Below, piece after piece: positions 3,496-59,339 of a DNA stretch of 64,000 nucleotides. The position numbers were made by a program, and so were the translations under genes. Each line of letters begins with the position of its first letter. The stretch's first letter is position 1. Origin of the DNA: Eubacteriales bacterium (GTDB lineage: Bacteria; Bacillota; Clostridia; Oscillospirales; Oscillospiraceae); NCBI GenBank assembly GCA_030531505.1, contig JAUNNH010000002.1, forward strand, positions 113,281 to 177,280, read 5' to 3'. The notes under the pieces were generated by a model. The model did no database searches. It saw only the letters and a program-made list of their open reading frames with translations, and was not told the DNA's origin.

Positions 3496-4119
3496 ATGGC
3501 GCTTCTCAGGAAATTTTTCAACCAGACCCGGAAGCCGGAGGGCTTTCTCGGGAAGCTGATGCTCAGCGGCATGAATAGCGGCCACGCGAAGCTGGCGGAC
3601 TGGGGATTTGAGCATCTGCCGGAGCTCACGGTGTCCCAGGCGGTGGATCTGGGCTGCGGCGGCGGGCGCAACGCGGGGGAACTTCTCAAGAAGTACCCGG
3701 CGGCGCACGTGACCGCCATTGACTACTCCGCGCTCTGCGTGGAAAAAGCAAAGTCATACAACCGGGCCATGATCGCGGCGGAACGCTGCACCGTGCGGCA
3801 GGGAGACGTTTCGGCGCTCGACCTTCCCGCAGCGTCCTTTGACCTGGCCACGGCCTTTGAGACCATCTATTTCTGGCCAGGACTGGAGAAATGCTTTGCC
3901 GAGGCGGCGAAGGTGTTAAAGTCCGGCGGGTATTTTCTGATCTGCAACGAGTCCGACGGGGCCGATCCGACCAGCGTGAAATTTGAATCGATCATCGACG
4001 GCATGAAAAACTACACGCCGCAGGAAATCGAAGCCGCTCTGAAGGCCGCGGGCTTCTCCCGGGTGGAGATCGACCATCATCCCACGAAGCCCTGGATCGC
4101 CGTGCTGGCGAAAAAGTGA
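3496..4119 (+). CDS. Class I SAM-dependent methyltransferase
   Basis: A 207-residue methyltransferase with motif I AVDLGCGGG at about 49-57, followed by an acidic residue in TAIDYS and the GDVSALDLPAASFD segment. An AGGAGG site precedes the ATG by eight bases. The N-terminal 40 residues are basic and hydrophobic. It lies 19 bp after the hydrolase gene in the same presumed operon. No substrate-specific domain is visible. Confidence 0.8.
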   Translation: MALLRKFFNQTRKPEGFLGKLMLSGMNSGHAKLADWGFEHLPELTVSQAVDLGCGGGRNAGELLKKYPAAHVTAIDYSALCVEKAKSYNRAMIAAERCTVRQGDVSALDLPAASFDLATAFETIYFWPGLEKCFAEAAKVLKSGGYFLICNESDGADPTSVKFESIIDGMKNYTPQEIEAALKAAGFSRVEIDHHPTKPWIAVLAKK

Positions 4120-4196
4120 GTGCGGCGAACGAGCAACTCTCCCATCTCACAGCGGCCAAAAAAGCATCTGCGGGATGGGCATATTCAAGCAGAACG

Positions 4197-12827: not shown

Positions 12828-13325
12828 ATGCTTCTGACAATTTTTCTGGCGATCGTCTTCTGCGCGGCGATGGCTCTGATGCTGATATCCTGTGTGGCGT
12901 TTATTCAGGATAACAAGTTCTTTTCCTCGGCTCCCAGGGAAGCGCGGGAAGTGCTGATCCAGCGGGAGCAGGAGCTCTTCTACGGAGCGAGGGCGATCGG
13001 ATGGACGCTTTTTATCATCAGCGTTCTGATGATCCTCGGCGCGGGTGTGATCGCCGTCTGGGACGGCCTCCGAAGCGGCTTCTCGTTCTGGCAATTCTTT
13101 TTGCGTTTTGTGCTGATCCTTACCATTTACAAGATCTGCGACATGGCCCTCATCGACAACTTTCTGCTTTTGAAATTCCACTTCTTCCAGCATTACTACC
13201 CCGAGGCGGCGCATGTGATGGAGGGAAGGAAGTACGGCTTCAACCTCAAAAGCCAGCTGCTGAAGCTGTTTGTGATCTTTCCCGCCGTCTCCGCGCTGGC
13301 GGCCTGGATCTGCACCCGGTTCTGA
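12828..13325 (+). CDS. Four-segment membrane protein, paralogue A
   Basis: A 165-residue membrane protein: N-terminal segment 3-25, two central segments with FWQFFLRFVLILTIYKICDMALIDNFLL between them, and a C-terminal segment ending AAWICTRF. It is clearly related to the broken gene at 16204-16969 (shared FGQFLARF, FFQHYxPE, GYN and AAWICT-F features) and more distantly to 14898-15392. The function is unknown. AGGAGG precedes the ATG. Confidence 0.65.
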   Translation: MLLTIFLAIVFCAAMALMLISCVAFIQDNKFFSSAPREAREVLIQREQELFYGARAIGWTLFIISVLMILGAGVIAVWDGLRSGFSFWQFFLRFVLILTIYKICDMALIDNFLLLKFHFFQHYYPEAAHVMEGRKYGFNLKSQLLKLFVIFPAVSALAAWICTRF

Positions 13326-16203: not shown

Positions 16204-16969
16204 ATGCTTACCCTGATTCTGACACTGACAATGTGCGCCCTGCTCTTTGGCATGATCTGGGCGGCGACGTACTTCTACCCCTGGACGGGTCTGCTTCGGT
16301 TTTTCCCCAAAGATATCGAAGAAAAGGCCAGGCTGCATCAGCCGCCCTTCCCGGCCGCACCGGTGATCGGCTGGATCCTTAGGGCGAAGGGGGTTGAACC
16401 CTTGCCGGTTTTAGCGGGCGGATTTCCGCCGACACTGCGTCAAACACCTTGAAAATACAGAAGTATTCCCTGCGGCGTTCTCCTTGTTTCGACAAAAATC
16501 CGCTCCGTTAAAACTGCAAAGCACCTGTGAGCTGACATTTTTCGAGGGATTTTTGTTCTTTTTGATGCAGCTGGGCTGACGCCCAGCAAAGAAAAAAGGG
16601 CAAAAAGCGCCGAAAAGGGGCGCTCACAGGCGATAAGTGTTCAACCCCCTTCGCCCTATGCTGCTCTGCGCGCTGGGCTTTGTCGGCGTGATCGTTTACG
16701 GCGGATGGGACGGCGTACAAAAGGAATTTACCTTTGGACAATTCCTGGCACGCTTCCTTGTCATTCTGCTCGGCGTCAAAGCCTTTGATATCATCGTTCT
16801 GGATTACATTCTGATCACGAAGACGCAGTTTTTCCAGCACTATATCCCGGAAACGAAAGGCTGCGCCGGGTACCACAGCTTTGGCTATAACCGGAAAGAG
16901 CAGCTCAGACAGATCCTGACGCAGCCCTTCGCAGCACTGCTGATTGCCTGGATCTGCACGCTGTTTTGA
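16204..16969 (+). pseudogene. Membrane-protein gene split by a TA-flanked element
   Basis: The frame from ATG 16204 encodes MLTLILTLTMCALLFGMIWA and on to GWIL, then enters the inserted element and stops at 16450-16452. After the element the gene resumes at 16658 as MLLCALGFVGVIVYGGW and ends AAWICTLF (TGA 16967-16969). Removing the 277-bp insertion with one TA restores an uninterrupted frame (...ATC CTT ATG CTG CTC...). The restored protein, about 162 residues, is a paralogue of 12828-13325. Recency is suggested because both halves still read cleanly. Confidence 0.8.
16380..16658 (+). mobile_element. TA-flanked structured MITE-like element, copy 1
   Basis: A 279-bp insertion counting TA at both ends. 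Terminal inverted repeats TAGGGCGAAGGGGGTTGAAC (16380-16399 and 16639-16658) match perfectly over 20 bp. Inside are an 18-bp stem with one bulged base (16408-16425 with 16496-16514), a 9-bp stem (16524-16532 with 16622-16630) and a 7-bp hairpin with tetraloop (16570-16587). There is no transposase ORF. TA duplication is typical of IS630/Tc1-mariner-type transposition. It is homologous, reversed, to 47683-47960. Confidence 0.85.
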
Positions 16970-26274: not shown

Positions 26275-26283
26275 ATTTACCAT

Positions 26284-26436
26284 GATAGAGGCGCGCCCGA
26301 GAAGAGTACCGCGGTGCAACGGCTGCCAGAGCCGCGCGGGAAAGGTGAGGGCGCCGAAGTGGTCCGCCATGGCGGGCGGGCCGCTGGCAGGGCGGAGAAG
26401 ATCCGTTCTGCTGTCGCAGTGATGCGGAGCGCTATC
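26284..26436 (+). ncRNA. Lysine riboswitch (L-box)
   Basis: P1 is formed by GATAG at 26284 and CTATC at 26432. Conserved L-box segments appear in order: AGAGGCGCG, AGAAGAGTA, GGGAAAGGTG, GCGCCGAAGTG, GCTGGCAGG and GGAGCGCTATC. Lysine binding should favour the terminator at 26470-26501 and shut off lysA, the last enzyme of lysine synthesis. Confidence 0.9.
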
Positions 26437-26469
26437 CGAAACAAGACACCGACTACCGGGACTTCGTGA

Positions 26470-46539: not shown

Positions 46540-47685
46540 ATGGCAGAGAAACGTGATTACTACGAGGTGCTCGGCGTTGACAAGAGCGCCACGCAGGACG
46601 AGCTCAAAAAAGCATACCGCAAGATCGCCAAGGAGAACCACCCCGATCAGCACCCCGGCGACAAAGCCTGTGAGGAGCGTTTCAAAGAGGCCAATGAGGC
46701 CTATGAGATCCTCTCCGACCCGGACAAGCGCCAGAAGTACGACCAGTTCGGCCACGCGGCCTTCGATCCCAGCGCCGGCTATGGCGCGGGCGACTTCGGG
46801 GGCTTCGGCGGCTTCGACGGCTTCGACGACATTTTCGGCGGCGGCGGCTTCGGCGACATCTTCTCGAGTATCTTCGGCGGCGGCGCCCAGACCCGCAACC
46901 CCAACGCCCCGCGCCGCGGCGACGACGTGCGCGCCACGCTGAACATCAGCTTTGAGGAGGCCGCCTTCGGCTGCGAGAAGGAGGTCACCGCGCCGCGCAT
47001 CGAGACCTGCCCCGACTGCAAGGGCACCGGCTGCGCGCCCGGCACCACCGCCGAGACCTGCCCCGACTGCCACGGCAGCGGCACCGTCCGCACCACGCAG
47101 CGCACGCCCTTCGGCATGGCCCAGTCCACCGGCCCGTGTCAGAAGTGCCGGGGCAGCGGCAAGATCATCCACCAGCCCTGCAAGACCTGCCGCGGCATGG
47201 GCAAGATCCGCCGCAACCACAAGCTGACCGTGAAGGTCCCCGCCGGCATCGACGACGGGCAGGCCATCCCGATTTCCGGCTGCGGCAACGCCGGCGCAAA
47301 CGGCGGCCCTGCGGGGGATCTGCTCGTGGGCGTGATCGTGCGTCCGCACCCGATCTTCGAGCGCGAGGGCACGAGCGTGTACATGGAACAGGAGATCAGC
47401 TACGCCCAGGCCGCGCTCGGCGCGGAGGTCGAGATCCCGACCCTCGACGGCAAGGTGAAGCTCACCATCCCCGAGGGCACCCAGCCCGGCGCGGTGTTCC
47501 GCATGCGCGGGCGCGGCATCCCCTCCCTGCGCGGGGGCGGACGCGGCGACCAGTTTGTGAGCATCAAAATGGCGGTCCCGCGTAATCTCACGGGCACGCA
47601 GAAGGAGCTGCTGCGGCAGTTCGCCGCCTCGATGGGCGAGCTGGACTCCGGCAAGAGCGGCCTCTTCGGAAAGAAAAAGAGATAG
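46540..47685 (+). CDS. dnaJ: Chaperone DnaJ (Hsp40)
   Basis: A 381-residue type I DnaJ: J domain (5-70) with HPD at 34-36, Gly/Phe-rich linker (about 77-125), four CxxCxGxG zinc repeats (CPDCKGTG, CPDCHGSG, CQKCRGSG, CKTCRGMG) and the C-terminal substrate domains with GDLLVGVIVRPHPIF. It stimulates DnaK's ATPase. The stop TAG at 47683 shares its TA with the left end of an inserted structured element. Confidence 0.96.
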   Translation: MAEKRDYYEVLGVDKSATQDELKKAYRKIAKENHPDQHPGDKACEERFKEANEAYEILSDPDKRQKYDQFGHAAFDPSAGYGAGDFGGFGGFDGFDDIFGGGGFGDIFSSIFGGGAQTRNPNAPRRGDDVRATLNISFEEAAFGCEKEVTAPRIETCPDCKGTGCAPGTTAETCPDCHGSGTVRTTQRTPFGMAQSTGPCQKCRGSGKIIHQPCKTCRGMGKIRRNHKLTVKVPAGIDDGQAIPISGCGNAGANGGPAGDLLVGVIVRPHPIFEREGTSVYMEQEISYAQAALGAEVEIPTLDGKVKLTIPEGTQPGAVFRMRGRGIPSLRGGGRGDQFVSIKMAVPRNLTGTQKELLRQFAASMGELDSGKSGLFGKKKR

Positions 47686-47960
47686 CCTGACGGCGCCAAT
47701 CCGAACACGCCTCTCAGCGGCCTTTTTCGGTGCTTTTTGCCTTGTCCTCCTCGCCTTGCGCCAGCAAGGCTTCGTCGTCCGCAACAAAAATCCCTCGAAA
47801 AATTCTCGCTGAGAGGTGCCTTGCAGTTTTGACGGAGCCAATTTTCGTCAAGACAAGGAAAAGGGCGCAGAGAATACTTTGTGTATTGTCAAGTCCTTTG
47901 ACGCGGAATTGGCGGAAATTGGCCCGTCAAAACCGTGTTCGAATTGGCGCCATCAGGCTA
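47683..47960 (-). mobile_element. TA-flanked structured MITE-like element, copy 2
   Basis: A 278-bp non-coding element with inverted ends of about 27 bp (TAGCCTGAcGGCGCCAAT type, one to two differences) and TA on both sides. It is homologous, in reverse orientation, to 16380-16658. Shared blocks include CCCTCGAAAAAT, CGGTGCTTTTTGCC-like and GTTTTGACGG-type stretches. The stems correspond: 47826-47844 with 47916-47933, 47710-47719 with 47807-47816, and 47753-47770 as tetraloop hairpin. No transposase is present. Confidence 0.82.
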
Positions 47961-47990
47961 GCCTGACGGCGTAAACCAGTGCATACTATA

Positions 47991-57594: not shown

Positions 57595-59181
57595 ATGATG
57601 AAGATCCTGTTCAAAAACGGCACGATCTATGACGGCAGCGGCACGAAGCCGCAGGTGGGTGACGTGCTGATCGAGGACGAGCGCATCCTCGCCGTCGGCG
57701 GCGAGATCACGGAGGCGGCGGACAAGGTCGTGGATATCCGCGGGCTTCAGATCTGCCCGGGCCTGATCGACGCCCATTCGCACAACGACTTCTTTTACGA
57801 CCGCGAGGATGCGGAGAAATTCTATCGGCCCTTCATCGAGCAGGGCATCACCACGCAGATCACCGGCAACTGCAGCTTTTCCCCCTTCGGCATGGACGCG
57901 GATACGCCCCACCGGGACAAGCTCGGCGGCGGCCTCTTCGATACGCTGCACCCCGGCAGCTTCGCGGCCTTCAAGGAGCGCGCAAAGGGCCGGCTCTTTG
58001 TGAACCTCGTCCCGCTGATCGGGCAGGGCTCGGTGCGCGCGGGCATCGCGGGCTACGATCCGACGCCCTTCACGCGCGAACAGATCGAGAAGGAGCTGTC
58101 CTTTGTGCGCGAGGCGATGGAGGGCGGCGCCTTCGGCGGGTCCTTCGGCTTCATGTATGAGCCGGACCGCTATGCCAAGGACGAGGAGATCACTGCCTTC
58201 GCGAAGGAGATCGCGAAATACGGCGGCATCCTCACGATCCATCCGCGCGCCTGCTCCATCGTGAGCGCGGACTACCCGCTGCTGACGAAGAAGTCCCACC
58301 TCGAGATGGGCCTGGACGAGGCGGTGGAGATCCAGCATAAAGCCGGCTGCCGGCTGGAGTACAGCCACCTGATCTTCACCGGGCAGCGGAGCTGGAAGCT
58401 GCTCGACAAGATGCTCGCCGTCTTCCACCGCGAGCAGGCAAAGGGGAATCCCATCGCTTTCGACAACTACGCCTTCCACTACGGCGCCTCGGTCATCACC
58501 GTCGTCTTCCCGGAGTGGTACGCCTCCCTCACGCCCGAGGAGGCGAAAAAGCCCATCAATCGCTTCAAGCTCTCCCTCACCATCCTCATGTACCGCAAGG
58601 TCCTCGGCATCGACTGGGAGGACATGGTCGTGGCCTATATCTCCGACGAGCACCCGGAGTATGAGGGCAAGACCGTCGAACAGCTCGCGAAGGAGGAGGG
58701 TGTGTCGGAGCTCGATATGTACCTCAAGCTCGTCGAGCTCTCCGGCCGCGCGGGCAGCATCTACCTCGGCAAGTACTATAACGACGCGATCGTCCGCCGC
58801 CTGATGGAGGATGAGCTCTCCGTCTTCATGACGGACGCCTGGGTGGAGGAGAAGGGCCTGCAGAATATCGCCGCCTTCCAGACCTTCCCGCAGTTTTTCC
58901 TGCTTGCCCGGCGCTGGGGCATCCCCACCGAGACCGTGGTGCGCAAGATGACCGGCGCCACCGCCGACCGCTACGGCATCCCCGAGCGCGGCTATCTGAA
59001 GCCCGGCTTCAAGGCGGACATCACCGTACTCGACCCGGCCGCCCTGAAGGTCGACGAGTCGAAGCCTGATTTCCGCCCCGGCGGCATCGTGCACGTCTAT
59101 GTGAACGGCCGCGCCGTTCTGGAGAACGGTGTATACCGCGGCGGTACGGCGGGCGAGGTCGTGCTCAAGCACTTATACTAA
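57595..59181 (+). CDS. N-acyl-D-amino-acid deacylase-like amidohydrolase
   Basis: A 528-residue amidohydrolase-superfamily enzyme of the D-aminoacylase group. The metal-binding HSH of DAHSHNDFFYD (about 60-70) is present; TGNCSFSPFG contains the group's conserved Cys, and SFGFMYEPDRYAKDEEI, FTGQRSWKLL and the C-terminal KPGFKADITVLDP follow. It probably releases D-amino acids from acylated forms. Its last codons (Leu-Tyr-stop) are supplied by the end of an inserted repeat at 59173. ATG 57595 or 57598 may be used. Confidence 0.85.
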   Translation: MMKILFKNGTIYDGSGTKPQVGDVLIEDERILAVGGEITEAADKVVDIRGLQICPGLIDAHSHNDFFYDREDAEKFYRPFIEQGITTQITGNCSFSPFGMDADTPHRDKLGGGLFDTLHPGSFAAFKERAKGRLFVNLVPLIGQGSVRAGIAGYDPTPFTREQIEKELSFVREAMEGGAFGGSFGFMYEPDRYAKDEEITAFAKEIAKYGGILTIHPRACSIVSADYPLLTKKSHLEMGLDEAVEIQHKAGCRLEYSHLIFTGQRSWKLLDKMLAVFHREQAKGNPIAFDNYAFHYGASVITVVFPEWYASLTPEEAKKPINRFKLSLTILMYRKVLGIDWEDMVVAYISDEHPEYEGKTVEQLAKEEGVSELDMYLKLVELSGRAGSIYLGKYYNDAIVRRLMEDELSVFMTDAWVEEKGLQNIAAFQTFPQFFLLARRWGIPTETVVRKMTGATADRYGIPERGYLKPGFKADITVLDPAALKVDESKPDFRPGGIVHVYVNGRAVLENGVYRGGTAGEVVLKHLY

Positions 59182-59339
59182 TACCTAATAAAAACAAGAC
59201 AATCTTTGCGGCCAGAATTGTGCCATACTGCGTTGAGCTCCTTGACCATATATGTCCATTATGCTCTGCGGAGCCCGCCTTGTCTGACGCAATTCTGCCT
59301 CGCAAATCTTTGTCTGCTTTCTATCAGGTATTAGTATAA
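59173..59339. mobile_element. MITE-like element with TTATACTAATACCT ends
   Basis: A 167-bp non-coding element. TTATACTAATACCT at 59173 recurs inverted ending at 59339, and similarity between the arms continues about 50 bases inward (CAAGACAA versus GCAGACAA, CAGAATTG in both). The left end provides TAC-TAA, the last codon and stop of the deacylase gene. It is unrelated in sequence to the elements at 16380 and 47683. Confidence 0.72.

Follow-up and report, generated by a model that had tools for sequence, protein, structure and literature searches.

Two TA-flanked elements of 279 bp and 278 bp in the genome of a Eubacteriales bacterium have stems that differ in sequence between the copies but stay paired within each copy. 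The question raised by these elements is whether the pairing is maintained because a folded RNA or a folded DNA is under selection, as a reading made from the sequence alone had proposed, or whether it belongs to a transposon of ordinary kind, recognised by its terminal repeats.

The two copies and their family

The window, which is the whole stretch of DNA that was analysed, comprises 64,000 nt of assembly GCA_030531505.1 (contig JAUNNH010000002.1, positions 113,281-177,280, forward strand), a genome that is 74% complete. Copy 1 (16380-16658, plus strand) is defined by its sequence and by covariation and has TA at both ends; copy 2 (47683-47960, minus strand) has three further near-identical copies in the genome. 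Inspection of the sequence confirmed both positions, and alignment confirmed that the copies correspond along their length. Read in order, the element consists of TA, a terminal repeat, arms A and B, a second terminal repeat and a closing TA. In copy 1 the left (16380-16405) and right (16633-16658) terminal repeats, on the plus strand, form an inverted repeat of 24 nt with 96% identity and enclose two hairpins with approximate bounds, arm A at 16406-16516 (match to the arm A covariance model, R1, at 16404-16521, 117.6 bits) and arm B at 16523-16632 (with ATTTTTCGAGGGATTTTTG / CAAAAAGCGCCGAAAA, placed by alignment and pairs). In copy 2 the approximate bounds, on the minus strand, are 47825-47935 for arm A (R1 match at 47819-47937, 125.5 bits) and 47709-47818 for arm B, placed likewise. 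The long stem of copy 1 is paired, but not with the exact partner attributed to it, for it contains one G.T (GTTTTAGCGG versus CCGTTAAAAC); the terminal repeats match within each copy, but those of copy 2 differ at one position (left TAGCCTGATGG, right CCGTCAGGCTA). The right terminal repeat of the other three copies of type 2 in the genome is CCATCAGGCTA.

Directly beyond the left end of copy 2 lies an 11-nt stretch, CGCCGTCAGGC (47961-47971, minus strand), which is identical to its own right end and appears from its sequence to be a remnant of the right end of another copy. The dnaJ gene (46540-47685, plus strand) shares bases of its TAG stop codon (47683-47685) with the TA end of copy 2. 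A third, single-arm relative (59173-59339, plus strand), which the sequence-only reading did not include, has arm A within a different terminal repeat, TTATACTAATACCTAATA, with an R1 match at 59198-59312 (55.8 bits), an inverted repeat and a fold z-score of -8.1. The amidohydrolase-like ORF at 57595-59181 has its in-frame TAA stop (59179-59181) inside the terminal repeat of this relative. The window also contains a lysine riboswitch at 26278-26442 (Rfam RF00168, 91.2 bits).

Copies 1 and 2 are members of a large family dispersed among Oscillospiraceae and their relatives. The genome itself contains two single-arm relatives and five full copies, of which four are nearly identical. Of 300 genomes of the same family, 56 had a match in a DNA search, and of 400 sampled, 190 had a match to R1; since the first search scored at most two candidates per genome and the second at most nine, copy counts are lower bounds. 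Named carriers include Oscillospiraceae, Ruminococcaceae, MAGs of other Clostridia, and Vescimonas fastidiosa. The 183 arm A matches, duplicate loci included, yielded 84 full elements, each different in sequence, with both arms complete and flanked by 40 bases or more. A simple rule finds TA at both ends of 53 of them, which measure 271-281 bp, and the other 31 failed this rule. Among 20 stretches that matched an exact pattern, the partner strand of arm B is present by eye in 11 and absent by eye in L041, L042, L043, L045, L046, L048, L050, L052 and L053, which are probably chance matches. In collections of phages, plasmids and viruses one Vescimonas fastidiosa record matched. A match in an unannotated faecal "phage" scaffold covers 55% of copy 2, and the terminal repeats of the scaffold are approximately 330 bp apart. 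Viral contigs contained no exact match to the arm B string, and one terminal-repeat match in them looks like chance. A literature search by theme and by sequence string, with most subscription papers outside its scope, found no report of the family.

The family consists of mobile DNA. A membrane-protein-like ORF (16204-16969, plus strand) is interrupted by copy 1, and removing the element together with one TA from the sequence restores its frame, as fits a 2-bp TA duplication. The junction is spanned by the alignment with a homologue from a congener (G412; 45% identity, residues 2-161 of the 162-residue query), and the genome of the window also encodes a paralogue (34%; window 12831-13322); the homologue search matched six of 40 genomes, including the source of the window. 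The elements thus have the features of a MITE, being short, non-coding, bounded by terminal inverted repeats and present in multiple dispersed copies, with TA duplicated at the target of copy 1, as the restored frame and the homologues indicate. The DNA around the elements is GC-rich, and an open frame of at least 150 codons covers 62 of 76 element sites versus 94% of random positions, which in such DNA is no sign that genes are avoided.

Fold, terminal repeats and exchangeable arms

The element fold is a three-way junction in which a stem made by the terminal repeats carries hairpin arms A and B. As RNA, copies 1 and 2 fold with z-scores of -8.9 and -10.2 relative to shuffled sequences, and copy 2 folds as DNA too, on both strands (z-scores of -9.8 and -11.0). 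Covariation in further copies, which selection on the fold leads one to expect, is present: two-sided change occurs at 26 of 42 pairs of arm A in a set of 24 elements and at 81 of the 109 pairs of the predicted whole-element structure in a set of 22, both sets hand-picked from 31 elements with near-duplicates and odd ends avoided. In the alignment of the 22 whole elements, 92.6% of cells are paired, and the number of cells with two-sided change is 448, versus 133 when shuffled and 69-89 when partners are slid; 20 column-permuted refolds gave 8-17 pairs with two-sided change each, from fewer predicted pairs. Mismatched internal loops are retained while the pairs adjacent to them covary, and unpaired arm columns (majority fraction 0.73) do not exceed paired ones (0.79) in conservation. 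For the internal arms, the evidence supports selection on a folded nucleic acid.

The further argument drawn from the terminal repeats, that they differ between copies while matching within each, is weaker than it had seemed. Several classes of terminal repeat exist, with tRNA T-arm-like GGGTTCGACTCCC, GCCTGAYGGCGCCAATT, ACCATCGGTTGACAAGGGC and others, and among the fetched copies a genome has one class or several. Identity of repeats within versus between copies is 0.98 versus 0.59 in the genome of the window and 0.92 versus 0.92 in G072, and the two values are nearly equal also in G392, G229 and G369, where, as in G072, the examined copies share one repeat; overall, within-copy identity is 0.89 (56) and between-copy identity 0.80 (166 ordered pairs), in a comparison restricted to fetched genomes and copies in which frayed ends lower some values. 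Because one repeat is shared in several genomes, matched ends alone do not separate selection on the fold from sequence-specific binding. The ends of class i (L047, L051, L142, L166 and others) resemble the T-arm plus acceptor strand of tRNA or tmRNA, and the repeat of L142 differs at one position from a 24-nt stretch of a tmRNA 3' end in L194. The best matches of class-i repeats to 48 tRNA and tmRNA 3' ends average 17.2 of 24 nt, versus 16.4 (maximum 16.8) in 300 shuffles of the five acceptor letters. Mimicry of tRNA by these repeats is not claimed, as the elements are related and, by eye, a local T-stem is not kept.

The arms behave as modules, found as A with B, A with an inverted A, A alone, B alone, or the stem alone. 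Arm A is alone in L025 and stands inside other terminal repeats in the relative at 59173-59339 and in L035. At L058 4300-4404, on a MAG contig labelled Porphyromonadaceae, an arm B that keeps its internal loop stands within an unrelated terminal repeat, and palindromes of approximately 40-50 bp consisting of the stem only are present in G369, taken to be Vescimonas fastidiosa. In L156 and L180, two of the three loci given, R1 matches the reverse strand, which indicates an inverted second arm A; a palindromic arm A can match R1 on the reverse strand, and the second arm of these two loci had no forward match listed. Exchange of arms within one genome is seen in L013 and L152, which are 2% apart in arm A and 32% apart in arm B. 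Distances of the three modules are weakly correlated (Pearson 0.18-0.37), for which saturation could be a partial cause. By eye, L056 (approximately 3982-4120, a Clostridia MAG) has one hairpin with two nested TTTTTCGAGGGATTTT / AAAGCACCGAAAAA modules. In L031 (1314-1667) the tip of arm B is enlarged by additional small hairpins. A different palindrome in L093 (1500-1600) has the same GCCTGATGGTGCCAATC end as the type-2 elements and is possibly another element using their mobiliser.

What maintains the pairing

The explanation that is preferred here, and that is considered about equally likely to be right or wrong as a whole, is that these are non-autonomous, MITE-like, TA-inserting elements with folded DNA as their substrate. 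The terminal repeats would pair into an outer stem on which arms A and B stand, and the folded DNA, either a single strand at the replication fork or a cruciform, would be recognised by an enzyme acting in trans; the outer stem would join the ends, while the arms and internal loops would provide docking for the enzyme or make the ends accessible. The element would then be cut at TA and reinserted at another TA. The inserted copy would be free to decay, so that conservation of the fold would apply to the propagating lineage and not to each locus. For the single proposition that the substrate of transposition is folded DNA, the chance is put at roughly one half.

The tempo of change bears on this explanation and on the first of its rivals. 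Arms that diverge independently within a copy, which the sequence-only reading had regarded as contrary to its claim, are found among the closest copies, and compensation is found at longer distances. At paired sites, copies less than 2% apart (7 pairs) have 17 one-sided and no two-sided changes, copies 2-5% apart (27 pairs) have 124 one-sided and seven two-sided changes, and the two-sided share climbs to 76% at the largest distances. One-sided changes come first and two-sided changes with distance, which implies that mutations occur one at a time and that compensation follows. It is unlikely, but not to be taken lightly, that the family is instead an ordinary MITE, in which a DDE-type transposase binds double-stranded terminal repeats and the arms are passengers kept paired by template switching. 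Perfect stems can be created and maintained by template switching, as described in PMC8794818; the repeats are often uniform within a genome, as with a partner that reads sequence; and the armless palindromes that consist of the stem only exist. The one-sided changes of the closest copies are a poor fit to frequent concerted copying of arms by the process described there (PMC8794818), although copying in two steps is possible, and the persistence of mismatched internal loops beside covarying pairs is likewise against passenger arms. The sole DDE model used, the IS630-type DDE_3 (PF13358) of TA-type transposases, had no match at an E-value of 0.001 in 42 genomes, 22 of them element-bearing and including that of the window, and IS630 was rejected as the mobiliser on these grounds.

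A second rival, that the arms act as RNA (part of a transcript or a small RNA) and that mobility merely spreads them, was weighed by comparing G-U with A-C pairs. Both copies fold strongly as RNA, and among the bcr repeats of B. cereus, some of which are MITE-like, many are described as lying in UTRs or operon spacers (PMC3446304). Structured RNA is expected to tolerate G-U above A-C, but in the elements, thinned from 84 to 49 of less than 90% identity, the ratio of G-U to A-C is 163:168 over all pairs and 113:133 over well-formed pairs, and it is 93:99 when they are thinned to 30 of less than 80% identity. RNase P of related genomes (32 of 40 genomes matched; 29 of 30 returned loci used, a long outlier being dropped, and 26 retained after thinning), given the same treatment, has 203:41 over all pairs and 88:40 over well-formed pairs, or a lower ratio of 102:60 over well-formed pairs when thinned less strictly. 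Fisher's test of elements versus RNase P gives p-values of 1e-17 (all pairs), 3e-5 (well-formed) and 4e-4 (elements at 80%), which are overstated because the sequences are related and their cells therefore not independent. Departures from pairing that are private to one copy are 49 A-C, 37 G-U and 20 other when one-sided, without strand asymmetry, and private two-sided Watson-Crick changes number 35. In the consensus of 11 subfamilies, 1009 of 1044 pairs are Watson-Crick, 12 are G-U, nine are A-C and 14 are other. Parity of G-U and A-C in single copies could also result from neutral decay, leaving the subfamily consensus alone to inform on the chemistry of the fold; the consensus is nearly all Watson-Crick, such that wobble is not favoured in the propagating lineages either. 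Rfam has no family at gathering score for the copies in the window or for five loci, with sub-threshold hits only. A role of the arms as RNA is judged improbable, and the parity together with the subfamily consensus points to DNA rather than RNA. Considering mobility, parity, stepwise compensation and modular arms together, the constraint seems to be on propagating DNA rather than on an RNA maintained locus by locus.

Candidate mobilisers and known systems

No full-length relative carrying a transposase, of the kind that the sequence-only reading had suggested looking for, was found. Beside the elements no protein family recurs beyond expectation: the two largest clusters of neighbours appeared to be ORFs read out of the elements themselves, and the third, with 13 loci, resembled common ATPases. 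Y1 transposases, some of them RAYT-like, are present in 20 of 41 genomes, and RAYT-like Y1 genes are present in 10 of 21 element-bearing genomes versus two of 20 without an R1 match (Fisher p 0.015); one copy, in L134, is approximately 0.6 kb from a RAYT gene. The tag by which REP and REPIN sequences are defined is GTAG/CGTC (PMC3733652), and no fixed tag of this kind is found by eye at the ends of the elements. In 12 flanks inspected by eye, the RAYT genes of L134, L289 and L290 stand beside GTAG-tagged palindromes of their own, of the GTAGGGGCG or GTAGGGCAGG type. In 15 of 16 newly fetched RAYT or Y1 loci there is no match to arm A or B above chance, the exception being L134, which was chosen for its copy. 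Seven of 21 element-bearing genomes have no Y1 hit, including G389 (99% complete, with at least nine R1 matches), and no Y1_Tnp was found in the 74% complete genome of the window. On this evidence the view that the elements are REPIN-like and moved by RAYT is very improbable, being supported by a weak association only and largely refuted for RAYT as the sole mobiliser.

ERIC inserts at TA. ERIC, NEMIS and similar families are likewise short, dispersed and foldable, and ERIC has terminal inverted repeats (PMC2267715); compared by description only, the present family differs in its three-way junction, exchangeable arms and compensated divergence in most stems. The double-hairpin families Efa-1 and Pae-1 likewise have paired adjacent stem-loops, but the passages of PMC2267715 that describe them speak of neither a covarying outer stem nor exchange of arms, and the word covariation is absent from the text of that paper. 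Of the repeats bcr1-bcr18 of B. cereus, bcr1-3 are MITE-like, and bcr10 and bcr18 have conserved secondary structure that is read in the account of PMC3446304 as RNA function, whereas the pairing statistics of the present family point to DNA. REP and REPIN sequences are also short dispersed palindromes, and RAYT genes are present in some of the same genomes, but the GTAG tag and the presence of RAYT described for them (PMC2817692, PMC3733652) do not extend to this family. The integron attC site is described as a recombination substrate that is a folded DNA strand, recognised through structure and extrahelical bases rather than sequence (PMC2727003); it differs in being a cassette site used by IntI on its bottom strand (PMC2727003), whereas the present family consists of whole dispersed TA elements with no strand bias in pairing. 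The family is MITE-like in anatomy and attC-like in evolving by structure.

It is possible, if somewhat doubtful, that these elements are a new class, a folded three-way-junction DNA of interchangeable shape modules read by a candidate recombinase through shape and a few loop bases; if true, such a class would be a stand-alone, dispersed analogue of integron attC sites. The family warns against taking strong covariation in a bacterial repeat as sufficient evidence of an RNA, and it would also point to a mobilising enzyme. With a large alignable set of mobile elements that conserve pairing and not sequence, selection of some non-autonomous elements as folded DNA becomes testable.
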